64,000 bases of DNA from Halobacteriovorax sp. JY17 (GTDB lineage Bacteria; Bdellovibrionota; Bacteriovoracia; Bacteriovoracales; Bacteriovoracaceae): assembly GCF_002753895.1 (NCBI RefSeq), contig NZ_NJER01000001.1, positions 806,001 through 870,000 of the forward strand, written 5' to 3'. Below, in pieces: positions 35,881 through 62,783 of the stretch. Both the position numbers and the translations under genes were made by a program. The notes below the pieces were generated by a model. That model searched no databases. It had not been told where the DNA came from and was given only the letters and a program-made list of their open reading frames with translations. Numbering within the stretch: the stretch's first letter is position 1; each line of letters starts with the position of its first letter.

Positions 35881-35887
35881 AAATAAT

Positions 35888-36003
35888 GGGTGCATCGTGC
35901 TAGCCTCACACCAAGTCCCCCTGGCACTACTTTCGCCGCTGACGAGCTTGACTTCTGAGTTCGGGATGGGATCAGGTATTTCCTCGTCGCTATCGACACA
36001 CCC
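35888..36003 (-). rRNA. rrf: 5S ribosomal RNA
   Basis: On the minus strand the molecule runs from GGGTGTGTCGATAGCG to GATGCACCC. The two ends pair as helix I, and the interior holds the conserved CCTGATCCCATCCCGAAC and CGAAAGTAGTG segments. The length is about 116 bases; the ends are set by the terminal helix and may be off by 1-3 bases. Confidence 0.95.
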
Positions 36004-36117
36004 AAACTGATTTTAACAATTTAGATATGGACTCTTTAATACTACTCGTGGCAAACAGAGTCAACTCCACCACGAAAATTTTATCAATCATCTTTGGCAT
36101 TCTCAAAACAAAACCAA

Positions 36118-36141
36118 ATAGAAGTGAACCTAAAATAAAAT
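36118..36141 (-). other. 3' arm of the 23S processing stem
   Basis: Just outside the 23S 3' end, this stretch (GAACCTAAAATAAAAT core on the plus strand) is complementary to 39121-39149 just outside the 5' end. Such stems are cut by RNase III in other bacteria; the pairing is seen, the cleavage is inferred. Confidence 0.6.
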
Positions 36142-36143
36142 AG

Positions 36144-39071
<2,928 letters not shown>

Positions 39072-39314
39072 CTATCTAAAGTTTTTACACAAGTTTTTAA
39101 ATTTTCTTGGTTTGAATTTTATTTTTATTTTAGGTTCTCGTCTTCTATCTGATTCTGTTATGAGAATGTTAAAGATCTATGCTGTTATTTTTTAAAATAC
39201 TCGTTAAAGTACTTTGAAAAATAACAACTATAAGAGTTGAAAGATGAAAAAAGATCCCAAAAGCATAAGTGCTCCTTGACCGGTCATAGAACAGCAAGCT
39301 GTTCAATTCCTTTA
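39072..39314 (-). other. 16S-23S internal transcribed spacer without tRNA genes
   Basis: About 243 A/T-rich bases. No tRNA-Ile or tRNA-Ala cloverleaf, anticodon or TTCGA-type T-arm was found. The spacer holds the inner arms of the 16S (39251-39272) and 23S (39121-39149) processing stems. Confidence 0.8.
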
Positions 39315-40871
<1,557 letters not shown>

Positions 40872-57167: not shown

Positions 57168-58319
57168 TTAGACTTTTGACTGCTCATAGTGTGACTTACC
57201 TGCTCTTGAAATCATGGCCCCACCAAGACAAACTTCCTCACCTTCCATTGTGGTATAGAAAACAATGGATTGCCTAAGGGCCACAGCTCTTTGAGGAGAA
57301 TCAAATTGAATATGCGCTACACCATCTTCAATACTTAGAATCGTACAATCCTGGTCTGCTTGGCGATAACGAATCTTGGCCTTACATTTAAGTGGTAAAT
57401 CTAGCGAAAATTCATTCTCCACCCAAGATATTTCATTTGCCCAAAGCTCGTCAAAAAAGAGCGCTGGATGGTCCTCACCGCGCTCAACGGTGACAACATT
57501 TCTCTGGGTATCCTTACCAACCACAAACCACGCAGCACCTGGGCCACCGAGACCTAGTCCCTTTCTCTGTCCGATCGTATAGTAAGCAGAACCAGTATGA
57601 TCCCCTACAACTTCTCCCTCTAGAGTTTCAAATTTTCCAGGCTTTATTTGAATATAATTTGAAAGAAAATTCTTAAAATTTCTCTCGCCAATGAAGCAGA
57701 TGCCAGTGGAATCTTTCTTATGCTTAGTTGCCAGATCGTATTTTTCAGCGAGGACTCTCACTTCGGTTTTTGGTAAGTGTCCGATAGGGAAAACCACGTG
57801 ATCAAGTTTCTCTTTTTTCATAGTGTAGAGAAAGTAAGTCTGATCTTTTCCAGGATCATTTCCTTTTATTAATCTATTCTCACCAGCAATGATTTTATTT
57901 TGACAATAGTGACCTGTGGCCAAGTAATCGGCCCCAAGCTCTAGAGCTTTATTTAAAAAGACTTTGAATTTGATCTCTCGATTACAGAGAATATCTGGAT
58001 TTGGTGTAAAGCCCGCTTCATATTCTTCAAGGAAATACTTAAAGACATTGTCTCGGTACTCTTTTACAAAATCAACAGAGTAGTATGGGATATCTAATTT
58101 CTCACAGACAGCTATTACATCTGCGTACTCTTTAGATGATTGGCAAACACCATTTTCGTCTTCTTCTTCCCAGTTCTTCATAAACATACCAATAACATTG
58201 TAGCCCTGCTCTTTTAGAACAGCAGCGCATACAGAAGAGTCAACTCCGCCAGACATTCCCACAATAATGGTTGTCTCCTCATTACTCTTTGTTTGATTTG
58301 ATATATTTCCTGTACTCAT
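57168..58319 (-). CDS. mnmA: tRNA-specific 2-thiouridylase MnmA
   Basis: MnmA thiolates U34 of Lys, Glu and Gln tRNAs. The PP-loop VGMSGGVDSSVCAAVL binds ATP. Both catalytic cysteines are present: C112 in NPDILCNREIKF and C208 in KDSTGICFIGER. HTGSAYYTIGQRKGLGLGG is also conserved, and the 383 residues match the family. It is the third gene of a unit with an M28 peptidase and a degenerate MnmA paralogue upstream. Confidence 0.96.
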   Translation of the reverse strand: MSTGNISNQTKSNEETTIIVGMSGGVDSSVCAAVLKEQGYNVIGMFMKNWEEEDENGVCQSSKEYADVIAVCEKLDIPYYSVDFVKEYRDNVFKYFLEEYEAGFTPNPDILCNREIKFKVFLNKALELGADYLATGHYCQNKIIAGENRLIKGNDPGKDQTYFLYTMKKEKLDHVVFPIGHLPKTEVRVLAEKYDLATKHKKDSTGICFIGERNFKNFLSNYIQIKPGKFETLEGEVVGDHTGSAYYTIGQRKGLGLGGPGAAWFVVGKDTQRNVVTVERGEDHPALFFDELWANEISWVENEFSLDLPLKCKAKIRYRQADQDCTILSIEDGVAHIQFDSPQRAVALRQSIVFYTTMEGEEVCLGGAMISRAGKSHYEQSKV

Positions 58320-58364
58320 AGGGTCTATCTACCAAGAAAACCCCATTAGGAAAAGGGAGTATGA

Positions 58365-59498
58365 TTAAATTATATCGTATGTCCAAGCGATAATACTGGC
58401 ACTAATGAAGCGAAATGCCCTATCTAAGCTTTTGAAATTTAAAGTCTCAACAAAATCATTCGACGTGTGATTCTTCTTATTTGGGTCGTCCTCCCAATTC
58501 TCGGAGAAAGTCACAGCAGGAAACCCCTCCTCCCAAAAGCTCACATGATCACTTCTATTAAAACCATTTGCGCTAATTTCAAAGCGCATTCCCGAGAGAG
58601 ACTTATCTCCTGCGTTTACTAATTTATTGGCAAGCTTTAAATCAAGTCCGTAAAGAGGATCTGATTCTTTTCTCGTGTAAACTTTAAAGTTATTAAATTT
58701 AGAGCTCTTATCATTTCTCTTAGAGTCATAACCAAGCATGAGAAGATTTACAAAGCCCGCGAATTTTTCTTTCTTTAAAGATTCTTTATACTTACTTACA
58801 AAGGCCCTTGCCCCAAGAAAAGCAAATTCTTGATAATCAAAGAACACTATTCTAACAGTCTTTGGCGTATTCACTTCTGTAAGTATTTCAATGAGAGAGA
58901 GAAGTGTCGCGACACCTGATCCATTATTATCAGCACCTGGCTGTGGCGCAGAAAAATCAATGACCAGATTTTCTTTATCGTAACTAATTGTATCGTAATG
59001 GGCCCCTAGAAGAATTACTTCATTAGGAGCAATACTTCCCTTCTTTTCCCAGATAATATTCTTTCCCTTAACAGTTTTTAATTTATCTAGCTGAGAGATC
59101 ATAGAATTAGTGAAATGATTCCACTTCTTATAAATCGGTGAAGTCTTAGGATAATTTCCCGCAATTTCTTTTTGAAAGTCTGCTCGGTAAACTCCTTTAG
59201 CGTATTCAATATCAGGAGAGAACTCGTCTACTACAATATAGGCCTTTGGATCAATCTTCTTAACTCTATCAACAAGCCAAGTCGCGGCCTTCTCATGTCC
59301 CTTTGTTCCAACCATTCGGGATGGTCTGCAACATGAAACAAAATCTCTTAAATTATCTAAAAGAAGATCATCCTTATACTTTCGTATGACATTCTTAATA
59401 GAGCCCATATTCTTAATATTTTTCTCGTAATCCCTTAAGACATAAGGGGCCGCAGAGAAAACACTAAATTGAAAAATAAAAATTAAAAAATACTTCAT
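58365..59498 (-). CDS. Secreted M28-family metallopeptidase (aminopeptidase/glutaminyl cyclase-like)
   Basis: The 377-residue exported protein has signal MKYFLIFIFQFSVFSA and the M28 zinc ligands in order: ILLGAHYDTIS (His), PGADNNGSGVATLLSLIEIL (Asp), FDYQEFAFLGARAFV (Glu pair; first Glu is the general base), GYDSKRN (Asp) and NHTSNDFVETL (His). M28 members include aminopeptidases and glutaminyl cyclases; which activity applies cannot be told. It lies 2 bases after the MnmA-like gene and 45 before mnmA. Confidence 0.88.
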   Translation of the reverse strand: MKYFLIFIFQFSVFSAAPYVLRDYEKNIKNMGSIKNVIRKYKDDLLLDNLRDFVSCCRPSRMVGTKGHEKAATWLVDRVKKIDPKAYIVVDEFSPDIEYAKGVYRADFQKEIAGNYPKTSPIYKKWNHFTNSMISQLDKLKTVKGKNIIWEKKGSIAPNEVILLGAHYDTISYDKENLVIDFSAPQPGADNNGSGVATLLSLIEILTEVNTPKTVRIVFFDYQEFAFLGARAFVSKYKESLKKEKFAGFVNLLMLGYDSKRNDKSSKFNNFKVYTRKESDPLYGLDLKLANKLVNAGDKSLSGMRFEISANGFNRSDHVSFWEEGFPAVTFSENWEDDPNKKNHTSNDFVETLNFKSLDRAFRFISASIIAWTYDII

Positions 59499-59500
59499 AA

Positions 59501-60730
59501 TTAAAACTCTAAATGAACCTTCTTCTTAGCTGGTTGATCTTCGTCGAAGGCCTCTTCTTCTTCACGGGACTTTGGATAGACACGGTACTCTCCGTCCTGA
59601 AAGAAGCCAGAACTTCTAACAACTCCCGAACCAATAACTAGTGCTCCAACTCCTCTCTTATTATAGAAGACTTGGTAGCCTCCTCGAGGACAAACACCTT
59701 CCTGGGGAGTTTCAAACTCGACAACAACGGCCCTATTATTTTTAAAATATAATTTACAAGGAACCTTTGCCCCTGCAGATTCAGTTTGTACAAAGCAATT
59801 AATAGGCTTTGATAAATCCATTGAAGGATCATTAGAAAAGCGCATAAGCCTACAATGAGTATAGAAGTACTTTCCAGGATAATCCACGTAGACATCTTGT
59901 TGTCTTGGATTAATTTTTACAACAATTAGAGATTTATCAATGACAGCATCTTTTTTTCCAACAAGACCTTCTTGATTTAAGTGATAGTGATGAACCCCTG
60001 TATGTTCCACTAGAGTTGTTCCATCTCTAAAGTTTATAATTCGACCTTCTTTTCTAAGACTTGGAGCTGTGAATCTTTCAACCACTTCATTAAAATACTT
60101 ATTGAATAAAAATCCTTTTCTTCTCTTCTTATTTTCAAGATCGTCTTTTACAAATGTAATCCCTAGAAGACTTGATATTTTTACCACTTCACTATGTTTA
60201 ATTTCTGCGAGAGGAAAGATGAGCTTTGCCAATTCTTCCTGGGAGAGACGACTAAGGCCATAAGTTTCATCAAGGGTCACATCTGTTGGAACAAGTAGAC
60301 TATAAATTCCATTTTTTTGATTTTTAAAAACTTTTGCCTTATGCCCCGTAGCAATATTATCTGCACCTACAAGTTTTGCTTTTTCTAAGAGAGTCTCTAC
60401 TAAGATTTTATTCCAAGCGATCACTGGTTCAAATTGTTCGGCCGCAAGCCTTGTTGAAACAACGGGCTCTATAACTCTAGAATAGAAGAGTGAGTTAATA
60501 TTTGTTCCGTAGAAAGTGATTTCTAGTTGATTGCAAATCTTCTTAATATCTTCCAATGATTTTGGATTCCAAACGCTTAAGCTCTTATAGGGATATTCGT
60601 GGAAAACGACTCCAAGACCTATGACATTGAGACCCTGTTTCTTAAGTAAGTACGCAGCAACCGTGGACTCAATTCCACCATCCATACCTACTAGAACAGT
60701 TTTTTGATTAGAGCTTGAGTGCTTATTCAT
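59501..60730 (-). CDS. Degenerate MnmA paralogue
   Basis: The 409-residue protein aligns with MnmA over its length. The PP-loop reads VGMDGGIESTVAAYLL where MnmA has SGGVDSS, with Asp for Ser, Glu for Asp and Thr for Ser. Where MnmA has PDILCNR this has PVIAWNK (Trp106 for Cys), and the second catalytic Cys falls in a Lys/Arg-rich stretch (ENKKRRKGF). The downstream EHTGVHHYHLNQEGLVG and a C-terminal barrel segment remain. It cannot perform normal thiolation by the known mechanism, so it may bind tRNA or a partner. It has an extra acidic tail and may be translationally linked with the M28 gene. Confidence 0.82.
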   Translation of the reverse strand: MNKHSSSNQKTVLVGMDGGIESTVAAYLLKKQGLNVIGLGVVFHEYPYKSLSVWNPKSLEDIKKICNQLEITFYGTNINSLFYSRVIEPVVSTRLAAEQFEPVIAWNKILVETLLEKAKLVGADNIATGHKAKVFKNQKNGIYSLLVPTDVTLDETYGLSRLSQEELAKLIFPLAEIKHSEVVKISSLLGITFVKDDLENKKRRKGFLFNKYFNEVVERFTAPSLRKEGRIINFRDGTTLVEHTGVHHYHLNQEGLVGKKDAVIDKSLIVVKINPRQQDVYVDYPGKYFYTHCRLMRFSNDPSMDLSKPINCFVQTESAGAKVPCKLYFKNNRAVVVEFETPQEGVCPRGGYQVFYNKRGVGALVIGSGVVRSSGFFQDGEYRVYPKSREEEEAFDEDQPAKKKVHLEF

Positions 60731-60889
60731 GCAACACTTTTCCTTACGTTAACCAGACAAAAAAGATCAACATATTTAAGAGATATAACTTATGATAATT
60801 ATAGCAAAAAACGGCCTATTTTAAAGCCTTGCAAATATATCCTAGGGAAAACCGGTAAAGTAATCGACTTAAAGACCGATAAAAAGGCG

Positions 60890-61546
60890 ATGATATATAG
60901 GAAAACACCACAATTTAACGCTGGAGACACACTTCTCTTTGAAGTGAAGAAACAGCAACACAATCAAAGTCAACTCAAAGACTTTATTCACTTTATAAAG
61001 TATTGTGGAAGACGTGGGCCAATTAGATTTAAGCATATTGAAGAGCGTGCCGAGTTGATGGCCAATCTCACTCTTAAAGAAAACCTTCTTCTAGACCTTG
61101 GAATGAGAGAAAATACCAATAAAAGTATTAGTGAACTACTAAAGAAAGAAGAACGTCTTGCCCTATCTAAACTAATGGATTGCGTGAAAGATGAAAATAC
61201 TTATCCTGCAGACGCCTCCACAGAAGATAAGAAAATTATTTCTATAATAAAGATTCTCTTTCATAGTTCTGATTACTTATTTCTAGAAAAGCCTGAGAAA
61301 TTTCTCTGTGAAGAGAAGCAGAAAGTTTTCTTTGACGCTTTATTTGCCAGTAAAGAAAAATTTAATCAGACTCTTTTGATTACAAGTGATCATAGAAATC
61401 TTTGGCTACAATATGTAAGTAAAATAGTAAGCAAGGCTCCAAATGGGCACTTTGTCCTAAGTGACATCGTGCGCCACTCAGATACTTCAAATGTTGTTGA
61501 GCTCAAGACCAGCAATACTGATTTTAATTCCAAAAAAGCCGCATAA
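60890..61546 (+). CDS. Degenerate ABC-ATPase-like protein
   Basis: The segment order recalls an ABC ATPase with its catalytic motifs worn away. ELMANLTLKENLLLDLG matches the NLTVxENL region. ASTEDKKIISIIKILFHSSDYLFLEKPEKF stands where LSGGQ-(x)-Walker B (LLLDEP) would be, and NQTLLITSDHRNLW stands at the H-loop (LLVTHD). No Walker A was found. ATP hydrolysis is therefore unlikely. ATG at 60890 gives 218 residues; a frame opening at a GTG at 60719 would overlap the divergent MnmA-like gene. True start uncertain. Confidence 0.5.
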   Translation: MIYRKTPQFNAGDTLLFEVKKQQHNQSQLKDFIHFIKYCGRRGPIRFKHIEERAELMANLTLKENLLLDLGMRENTNKSISELLKKEERLALSKLMDCVKDENTYPADASTEDKKIISIIKILFHSSDYLFLEKPEKFLCEEKQKVFFDALFASKEKFNQTLLITSDHRNLWLQYVSKIVSKAPNGHFVLSDIVRHSDTSNVVELKTSNTDFNSKKAA

Positions 61547-61631: not shown

Positions 61632-62783
61632 ATGACTAATAATGTTTTAAACTTCATAGATGTTTTTGCGGGCGCTGGTGGCCTATCATGCGGGCTAGAG
61701 CTTGCTGGAATGAAATGTGTCCTAGGAATCGATGCCAATAAGCATGCCATGGATACTTTTGCACGCAACCACAAGCACGCAGAAACTTACTGTGGTGATA
61801 TCACCAAGCTGGCCAAGAAAGACCTACTTGAAAAATTAAAGGGAAATCACGTTCATGTTGTTGTTGGTGGACCTCCTTGCCAAGGTTTTTCAACTGTAGG
61901 CCTTGGAAATCCAGACGATATGAGAAATACGCTCTTCTTAGAGTTTTGTAGAATTGTTAGAACAACAATGCCTTACTTCGTCGTCATTGAAAATGTAACC
62001 GGGCTTCTTGCAAAGAAGAACGAGAAGACATTACAAAATATTTTCAAGAAATTTAAAACTCTTGGATATGATATGGAAGTTCAAGTCATGTCTTCACAAA
62101 ACTACGGGGTTCCTGAAAAGAGAAGAAGAACAATTCTCATTGGAACGCGAGTTAATACTGATATTACTTTTCCAAAACATACACATGATACTATCATTGC
62201 TAAGACCCTTAGAAATTCAATGACTGTTGGAGATGCTTTTAAGAACTTAAAAACAAAGTCAGGAAAGCTCTTTAATCATGATATCGAACAGGCCAAAATT
62301 AAATCAAAGATAGATCTTAAAAGACTTAAGAGAATTCCCGAAGGAAAGGGAATTCGCTATGAAGCCGATGAGAAGAAATACTTCACTCCTTCTTTAAAAC
62401 TTGGTGTGGACTGGGTAAACCTTAGAGAGAACCGCTTTCGTCAAACAAAGTATCAAAGACTCGACAGGTCTCTTCCAAGCCCTACAATTATGACTCACAG
62501 ACATAGCTACTATCATCCTGTTGAGCATAGATATCTAACTCAAAGAGAAGCGGCTGCTCTACAAAGTTTTCCAAATGACTTTGAGTTTATGGGGCCTCTT
62601 TCTGCTCAGTGGAGACAGATTGGAAATGCTGTTCCGCCACTTATGGCGAAGGCCATCGGAAAATCTCTAAAGAGCATGTACAAGTCATACCTCGAGCAGA
62701 GGGATTCAAAAGTAACCAAAAAGAGTAACACAAAACAAAAGATTGAATATGTCAGAGAGAAAGCCTTTGTTTATAAGAAGTAA
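61632..62783 (+). CDS. DNA (cytosine-5)-methyltransferase, solitary
   Basis: The 383-residue enzyme has the canonical C5 motifs in order: I (DVFAGAGGLSCGLELAG), IV (GGPPCQGFS with the nucleophilic Cys), VI (VVIENVTG), VIII (QNYGVPEKRRRTI), IX (RLDRSLPSPTIM) and X (WRQIGNAVPPLMAKAIG). The target-recognition region is between VIII and IX and cannot be read for specificity. No restriction endonuclease, S subunit or mobile element is adjacent, so it is probably an orphan or regulatory methyltransferase. Its own promoter precedes it. Confidence 0.94.
   Translation: MTNNVLNFIDVFAGAGGLSCGLELAGMKCVLGIDANKHAMDTFARNHKHAETYCGDITKLAKKDLLEKLKGNHVHVVVGGPPCQGFSTVGLGNPDDMRNTLFLEFCRIVRTTMPYFVVIENVTGLLAKKNEKTLQNIFKKFKTLGYDMEVQVMSSQNYGVPEKRRRTILIGTRVNTDITFPKHTHDTIIAKTLRNSMTVGDAFKNLKTKSGKLFNHDIEQAKIKSKIDLKRLKRIPEGKGIRYEADEKKYFTPSLKLGVDWVNLRENRFRQTKYQRLDRSLPSPTIMTHRHSYYHPVEHRYLTQREAAALQSFPNDFEFMGPLSAQWRQIGNAVPPLMAKAIGKSLKSMYKSYLEQRDSKVTKKSNTKQKIEYVREKAFVYKK

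Follow-up and report, generated by a model that had tools for sequence, protein, structure and literature searches.

The window analysed here is a 64,000-nucleotide stretch of the Bacteriovoracaceae genome of Halobacteriovorax sp. JY17 (G000:C1:806001-870000). On its minus strand, a gene for an MnmA-like protein (60730-59501), an M28 peptidase gene (59498-58365) and a gene for MnmA (58319-57168) follow one another in the order of transcription. A preliminary description of this DNA had named both MnmA-type open reading frames (ORFs) with their motif residues and had placed the peptidase gene two bases after the MnmA-like gene. Inspection of the sequence and the alignment found all of these as described (59498/59501 for the two-base spacing). 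The present study reveals that the MnmA-like protein has lost the canonical MnmA catalytic residues, and that it is widely retained, under selection and linked to MnmA. The features concerned are listed below.

59501..60730, minus strand: MnmA-like pseudoenzyme of 409 amino acids, a degenerate MnmA relative (ORF with PF03054 and PF20258; scores below the MnmA equivalog cut-offs; family-wide orthologues)
57168..58319, minus strand: canonical D-type MnmA of 383 amino acids, the presumed partner (NF001138, 443 bits, above the cut-off; all motifs intact)
58365..59498, minus strand: M28 peptidase between both MnmA-type genes (PF04389; gene order)
57981..58001, minus strand: NPDILCN of MnmA, with D109 and C112 (sequence)
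57693..57713, minus strand: DSTGICF of MnmA, with C208 (sequence)
60662..60688, minus strand: degenerate PP-loop GMDGGIEST, residues 15-23, canonically GMSGGVDSS (alignment; DGG[IVL]EST in four congeners)
60572..60574, minus strand: V53 at the site of the upstream cysteine, C59 in the neighbouring MnmA (none of the 26 orthologues without the other three cysteines has this one)
60410..60430, minus strand: EPVIAWN, residues 101-107, where MnmA reads NPDILCN, with W106 at the catalytic Cys and V103 as the Asp99 equivalent (alignment; E[PA][VI]IAWN in congeners)
60113..60130, minus strand: KKRRKG, residues 201-206, a basic stretch where MnmA reads DSTGIC (alignment)
59504..59566, minus strand: C-terminal tail peculiar to the family, first acidic and then basic, with HLEF-COOH at its end (terminal Phe counts in orthologues)

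The MnmA-like protein is 25% identical to the neighbouring MnmA over 387 columns (E 3e-26), and the catalytic residues of this D-type neighbour are missing from it. It matches the D-type MnmAs of E. coli and S. pneumoniae (PDB 2DER and 2HMA) over nearly the full length, and aligns along its whole length to the MnmA models (residues 12-371 against NF001138, 174.5 bits). A match of this extent and score excludes a chance resemblance. The scores fall below the curated equivalog cut-offs (152.4 vs 236.95 bits for TIGR00420, 174.5 vs 284 bits for NF001138). The HUP and beta-barrel domains were both matched (PF03054 and PF20258), and the domain search did not detect the middle domain, PF20259.

The D and C types of MnmA are already known, and the catalytic residues in E. 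coli numbering are Asp99, Cys102 and Cys199 (PMC11784392). The corresponding residues of the MnmA-like protein are V103, W106 and G206, of which W106 aligns with C112 of the neighbouring MnmA. The PP-loop, which reads SGGVDSS in that neighbour (residues 23-29), has become DGGIEST (residues 17-23); the loop Asp is a Glu, and the SGGxDS signature is lost. Furthermore, none of the four cysteines of the C…CxxC…C set is present in the window copy, and five residues that do not vary among working MnmAs, K158, R188, R252, R317 and R344, are replaced by L, V, E, E and E, respectively. A structure predicted from four sequences had a predicted local distance difference test score of 52, which is unusably low.

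Conservation, linkage and selection of the MnmA-like gene

The orthologue survey covered this phylum, with about 40 genera of Bacteriovoracaceae; a contig scan yielded only one close relative. The nearest named relative is Bacteriovoracaceae bacterium UBA3083 (86% along the protein). Among 59 relatives, the protein occurs in 4/4 congeners (64-85% identity) and in most other genera of the family (28-40%), and profile searching across 129 genomes of the family found a pair of MnmA-type matches in almost every genus. In the fetched loci, MnmA-like and canonical MnmA genes were told apart by two profiles. Wherever a family locus holds both genes, the MnmA-like gene lies immediately 5′ of MnmA and shares its strand (70/70 loci). 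The two are separated by 0.9-1.4 kb, usually filled by the M28 gene, in 48 of these loci, by less than 500 bases in 18, and otherwise in 4. The M28 peptidase gene is present in about two-thirds of family loci and is missing where both MnmA-type genes abut. Thus, with 18 of the 70 loci devoid of a gene-sized gap, the linkage to MnmA outlives the M28 gene. The genes that flank the pair vary between genera.

Pairwise nonsynonymous divergence (dN) of the MnmA-like gene is mostly 0.07-0.30, and synonymous divergence (dS) runs from 0.9 to saturation. The dN/dS ratio is about 0.05-0.12 in the cysteine-free copies, well under 0.2 and similar to that of MnmA or up to about twice as high, these values being rough since dS is saturated in many pairs. 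The MnmA-like gene is therefore under purifying selection. From its full-length retention, the preliminary description had argued for selection on a non-thiolating role. The orthologue search and motif comparison it proposed lend support to that argument, as orthologues are found family-wide, congeners have the changed motifs in common, dN/dS is low and the linkage to MnmA is strict.

In single genomes, the MnmA-like gene is split by, or ends at, an internal stop (L083 in G026; L099/L024 in G029); these broken frames could reflect either genuine decay or faults in the assembly. Such frames in two family genomes, together with the very long branches of the G021 and G006 copies, are what could be cited for a decaying pseudogene. 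However, the frames are open at full length across the family, selection is evident from the dN/dS values, and the congeners, 64-85% identical, have their motifs in common. These data contradict decay, and the pseudogene reading, which we regard as having almost no chance of being right, was rejected.

The motifs SGGVDSx, NPDxxCN and DSTG[IV]CF are present in all canonical partners. In the window's own genus, conservation extends to the altered motifs DGG[IVL]EST and E[PA][VI]IAWN and, less strictly, to the basic stretch. Across 75 family orthologues, all three cysteines of CxxC…C are present in 46, none in 26 (including the window copy) and some in 3, so that the set is all-or-none at three separate sites. 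A fourth cysteine, about 50 residues upstream, tracks the other three exactly (present in the 46, absent from the 26), whereas C66, a cysteine unrelated to this set, persists in 64 of the 75. Many independent co-losses cannot be read from the all-or-none pattern: the cysteine-free copies mostly lie close together on the tree, where about four changes are counted on the best topology and the well-supported branches require only one. The PP-loop is broken in 34 of the 46 cysteine-bearing orthologues; thus, the cysteines have been retained without an intact adenylation loop.

The preliminary description had offered different chemistry as one of the possible roles, in which the protein would be an active enzyme for another substrate or modification. 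TGH, D159, S22 of the loop and K133 are indeed among the conserved residues. However, the PP-loop is intact in only 14 of the 75 orthologues and varies between genera, no active-site replacement is common to the family, and all four active-site cysteines are gone from the window copy. We found no positive support for such chemistry in this cysteine-free copy and consider it highly improbable.

The invariant basic residues were judged against 116 canonical MnmAs. In cysteine-bearing and cysteine-free orthologues, respectively, K158 is kept in 0 and 4%, R188 in 2 and 0%, R252 in 7 and 0%, R317 in 0 and 15%, and R344 in 2 and 0%. Since they are lost in both sorts, no copy in the family resembles a working MnmA, the cysteine-bearing ones included. 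Such residues contact tRNA in MnmA. Their disappearance from nearly all family orthologues weakens the tRNA-binding role that had been suggested for the MnmA-like protein. The MnmA-like proteins do retain T135-G136-H137, D159, P178, G228 and H241-x-G243. They end in a tail with no counterpart in MnmA, typically charged and then hydrophobic-x-Phe. A terminal Phe is found in 55/75 MnmA-like orthologues vs 2/87 canonical MnmAs, and the tail might serve as a short docking motif.

Relation to the C-type MnmA of the sister order

The MnmA found in the sister order and in the phylum's other families is a C-type enzyme (NPCxxCN…ICF), and in many such loci its gene directly follows that of a NifS-type cysteine desulfurase with intact active-site Lys and Cys. 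A comparable partnership of desulfurase and MnmA is the YrvO-MnmA pair of Bacillus subtilis. In contrast, the Bacteriovoracaceae pseudoenzyme is found apart from a desulfurase and joined to a D-type MnmA. Some sister-order genomes carry an additional D-type MnmA elsewhere. Where a sister-order genus has no second MnmA, its C-type copy is intact (10/10 genera); where there is a second one, this holds in 1/16 (Fisher p 2e-6, an optimistic value because genera are not independent). The degenerate copies remain beside the NifS-type desulfurase, nearly all with its active-site cysteine.

Some sister-order loci stand out. The copies L202, L204-L206, L208 and L209 (families f8 and f12) are extremely degenerate, with 3-6 of 15 key residues left; they still follow a NifS-type desulfurase gene, and in several of these enzymes SHGSAC and then K/R stands where other desulfurases have SxGSACSSG. 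In G197 (L185, L210), a degenerate C-type MnmA is accompanied by an intact C-type MnmA of another lineage instead of a D-type one.

The C type corresponds to Shigi's CC-CxxC-C class, as cited in PMC11784392, and its sister-order form is the apparent counterpart of the MnmA-like protein. The cysteine-bearing orthologues have C…CxxC…C at the same sites, and their sister-order counterpart can be an intact C-type enzyme. The differences are that the window copy is without these cysteines, that K158 and R317 are lost in nearly all family orthologues, that the PP-loop is mostly broken and that the C-terminal tail is specific to the family.

One clade (100/100) unites the D-type MnmAs of both the family and its sister order; a second (100/100) holds the MnmA-like proteins. 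Because the MnmA-like protein falls outside the D-type clade, a recent tandem duplication of the neighbouring MnmA gene is ruled out as its source. The term paralogue, used in the preliminary description, therefore calls for caution; the cysteines of its relatives point to the C-type lineage. A first, larger quick tree placed the MnmA-like clade by the sister-order C type (support 83). On the cysteine signature of the relatives, we favour a C-type origin, which the trees do not prove. In the simplest history, a D-type MnmA would have superseded the resident C-type enzyme, which would have stayed on in two lineages with different gene neighbours.

Putative role in tRNA thiolation

We tentatively suggest that the MnmA-like protein is an MnmA-derived, conserved pseudoenzyme that assists thiolation without catalysing it. 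Most likely, it would be an adaptor for docking or sulfur relay, or else a regulatory pseudo-subunit; this is the best of the readings weighed here, with somewhat less than an even chance of being right. The ancestor would have been a C-type MnmA (C…CxxC…C) supplied by the NifS-type desulfurase encoded alongside. An acquired D-type MnmA would then have taken over the synthesis of 2-thiouridine at tRNA position 34 (s2U34), and the displaced protein would have lost its ATP-loop and tRNA/U34-site residues and been retained as a thiolation helper. It might bridge a cysteine desulfurase and the D-type MnmA or regulate the latter as a pseudo-subunit, perhaps through physical contact. The four-cysteine orthologues could carry sulfur or an Fe-S cluster; the window copy, devoid of the four cysteines, could act only as a scaffold or regulator. 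A dead copy is linked to the sulfur-donor gene in one lineage and to the acceptor gene in the other, and an adaptor role would suit both. Furthermore, TusE is absent from 23/24 and TusA from 22/24 of the phylum genomes examined; thus, the E. coli-type Tus relay is missing. Five class-V desulfurase-type matches were found in this genome.

The distances of the MnmA-like protein covary with those of MnmA beyond the M28 control (partial r 0.60 vs 0.34 and 0.23; 46 loci). Two copies, L132 (G006) and L101 (G108), do not adjoin MnmA, and both sit on very long branches; this lengthening after loss of the MnmA neighbour counts in favour of the helper role. The eukaryotic Ctu1/Ctu2 pair offers a precedent for such a helper (PMC10067955).

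Several observations weigh against a helper of this kind. A few genera (g32, G031) have MnmA with no MnmA-like gene, so the MnmA-like protein is not essential to MnmA, and G006 (96% complete) carries the MnmA-like gene with no detectable MnmA. The MnmA-like gene of Bacteriovoracaceae is not beside a desulfurase gene. The distance covariation rests on a single control gene (M28) with no permutation test. YrvO of B. subtilis is reported to pass sulfur straight to MnmA (cited in PMC11784392); since some MnmAs work with a desulfurase alone, a missing Tus system demands no relay. E. coli MnmA is monomeric in solution (PMC8961635). As for the proposed C-type origin, the careful, best tree puts the MnmA-like clade by the D type (42/79.8), and the approximately unbiased (AU) tests rejected no placement (p 0.27 with the sister-order C type, 0.39 with the other C type), so that trees and AU tests do not distinguish a C-type from a D-type origin.

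Heteromer formation, raised in the preliminary description, is among the better readings. The main rival of the adaptor role is a Ctu2-like subunit. Ctu2 is a Ctu1 homologue without the cluster cysteines, and both are required in vivo (PMC10067955). Like the MnmA-like protein, Ctu2/Ncs2, the partner of Ctu1/Ncs6 in the eukaryotic cytosolic U34 thiolase, is a non-catalytic homologue beside an intact one and concerns the same tRNA position. A cysteine-free homologue accompanying an intact one is found for the window copy and 25 orthologues, and 46 orthologues keep the cysteines. Among PP-loop enzymes, Ctu2/Ncs2 falls into the NcsA/TtuA subclass, whereas the MnmA-like protein best matches MnmA models and structures; the residue losses arose independently. 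Ctu2/Ncs2 is needed for thiolation in vivo, and the MnmA-like protein is known here from sequence, linkage and rate covariation. As a true counterpart, it would form an obligate heteromer with D-type MnmA, positioning tRNA or stabilising MnmA with no part for the desulfurase. The strict 70/70 linkage, the rate covariation and the cysteine loss shared with Ctu2 agree with this. In contrast, the monomeric state of E. coli MnmA, the loss of the invariant basic residues and the genera with MnmA alone make it unlikely, if worth serious attention.

Alternatively, the MnmA fold could have been repurposed for a role unrelated to tRNA thiolation, e.g., as a regulator or RNA-binding protein, its position beside MnmA being historical. 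Fast divergence (mean distance 1.67 vs 0.53 for MnmA), the new tail ending in Phe and the retention of the gene in G006 would fit such a change. However, the linkage persists through loss and gain of the M28 gene and changes of the flanks, and we regard this alternative, too, as unlikely.

Returning to the helper role, a bolder and more doubtful form of it is a bacterial two-component U34 thiolase, independent of Ctu1/Ctu2, made of D-type MnmA and a pseudoenzyme from the displaced C-type MnmA. Its dead subunit would dock the sulfur donor and, in some lineages, keep a cysteine or Fe-S site without adenylation. If so, a live and a dead thiolase subunit serving one and the same tRNA position were paired at least twice in evolution. 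A natural series runs through the family and its sister order, from intact C-type MnmA through cysteines without a PP-loop to cysteine-free copies, and comparison along it could separate ATP activation, sulfur handling and partner docking of MnmA. Many "second MnmA" genes in the phylum are probably no thiolases. In the literature searched, with most subscription journals outside the search, we found no paper that reports a degenerate partner of MnmA, deals with MnmA of Bacteriovorax, or describes C- and D-type MnmA together in a single genome.

Other features of the window

The divergent neighbour of the MnmA-like gene is an ORF at 60893-61546 on the plus strand (listed as 60719-61546). Its product weakly resembles ABC ATPases around Walker B, with no visible Walker A, and looks like a second degenerate ATPase-type protein. 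Homologues occupy the same position in many family loci and have a conserved, KKAA/KKAS-like C-terminus. Two genes upstream of the MnmA-like gene lies a C-5 cytosine DNA methyltransferase gene (61632-62783, plus strand), a placement conserved in many family loci. The same window holds a complete rRNA operon (16S, 23S and 5S) at 35887-40871 on the minus strand.

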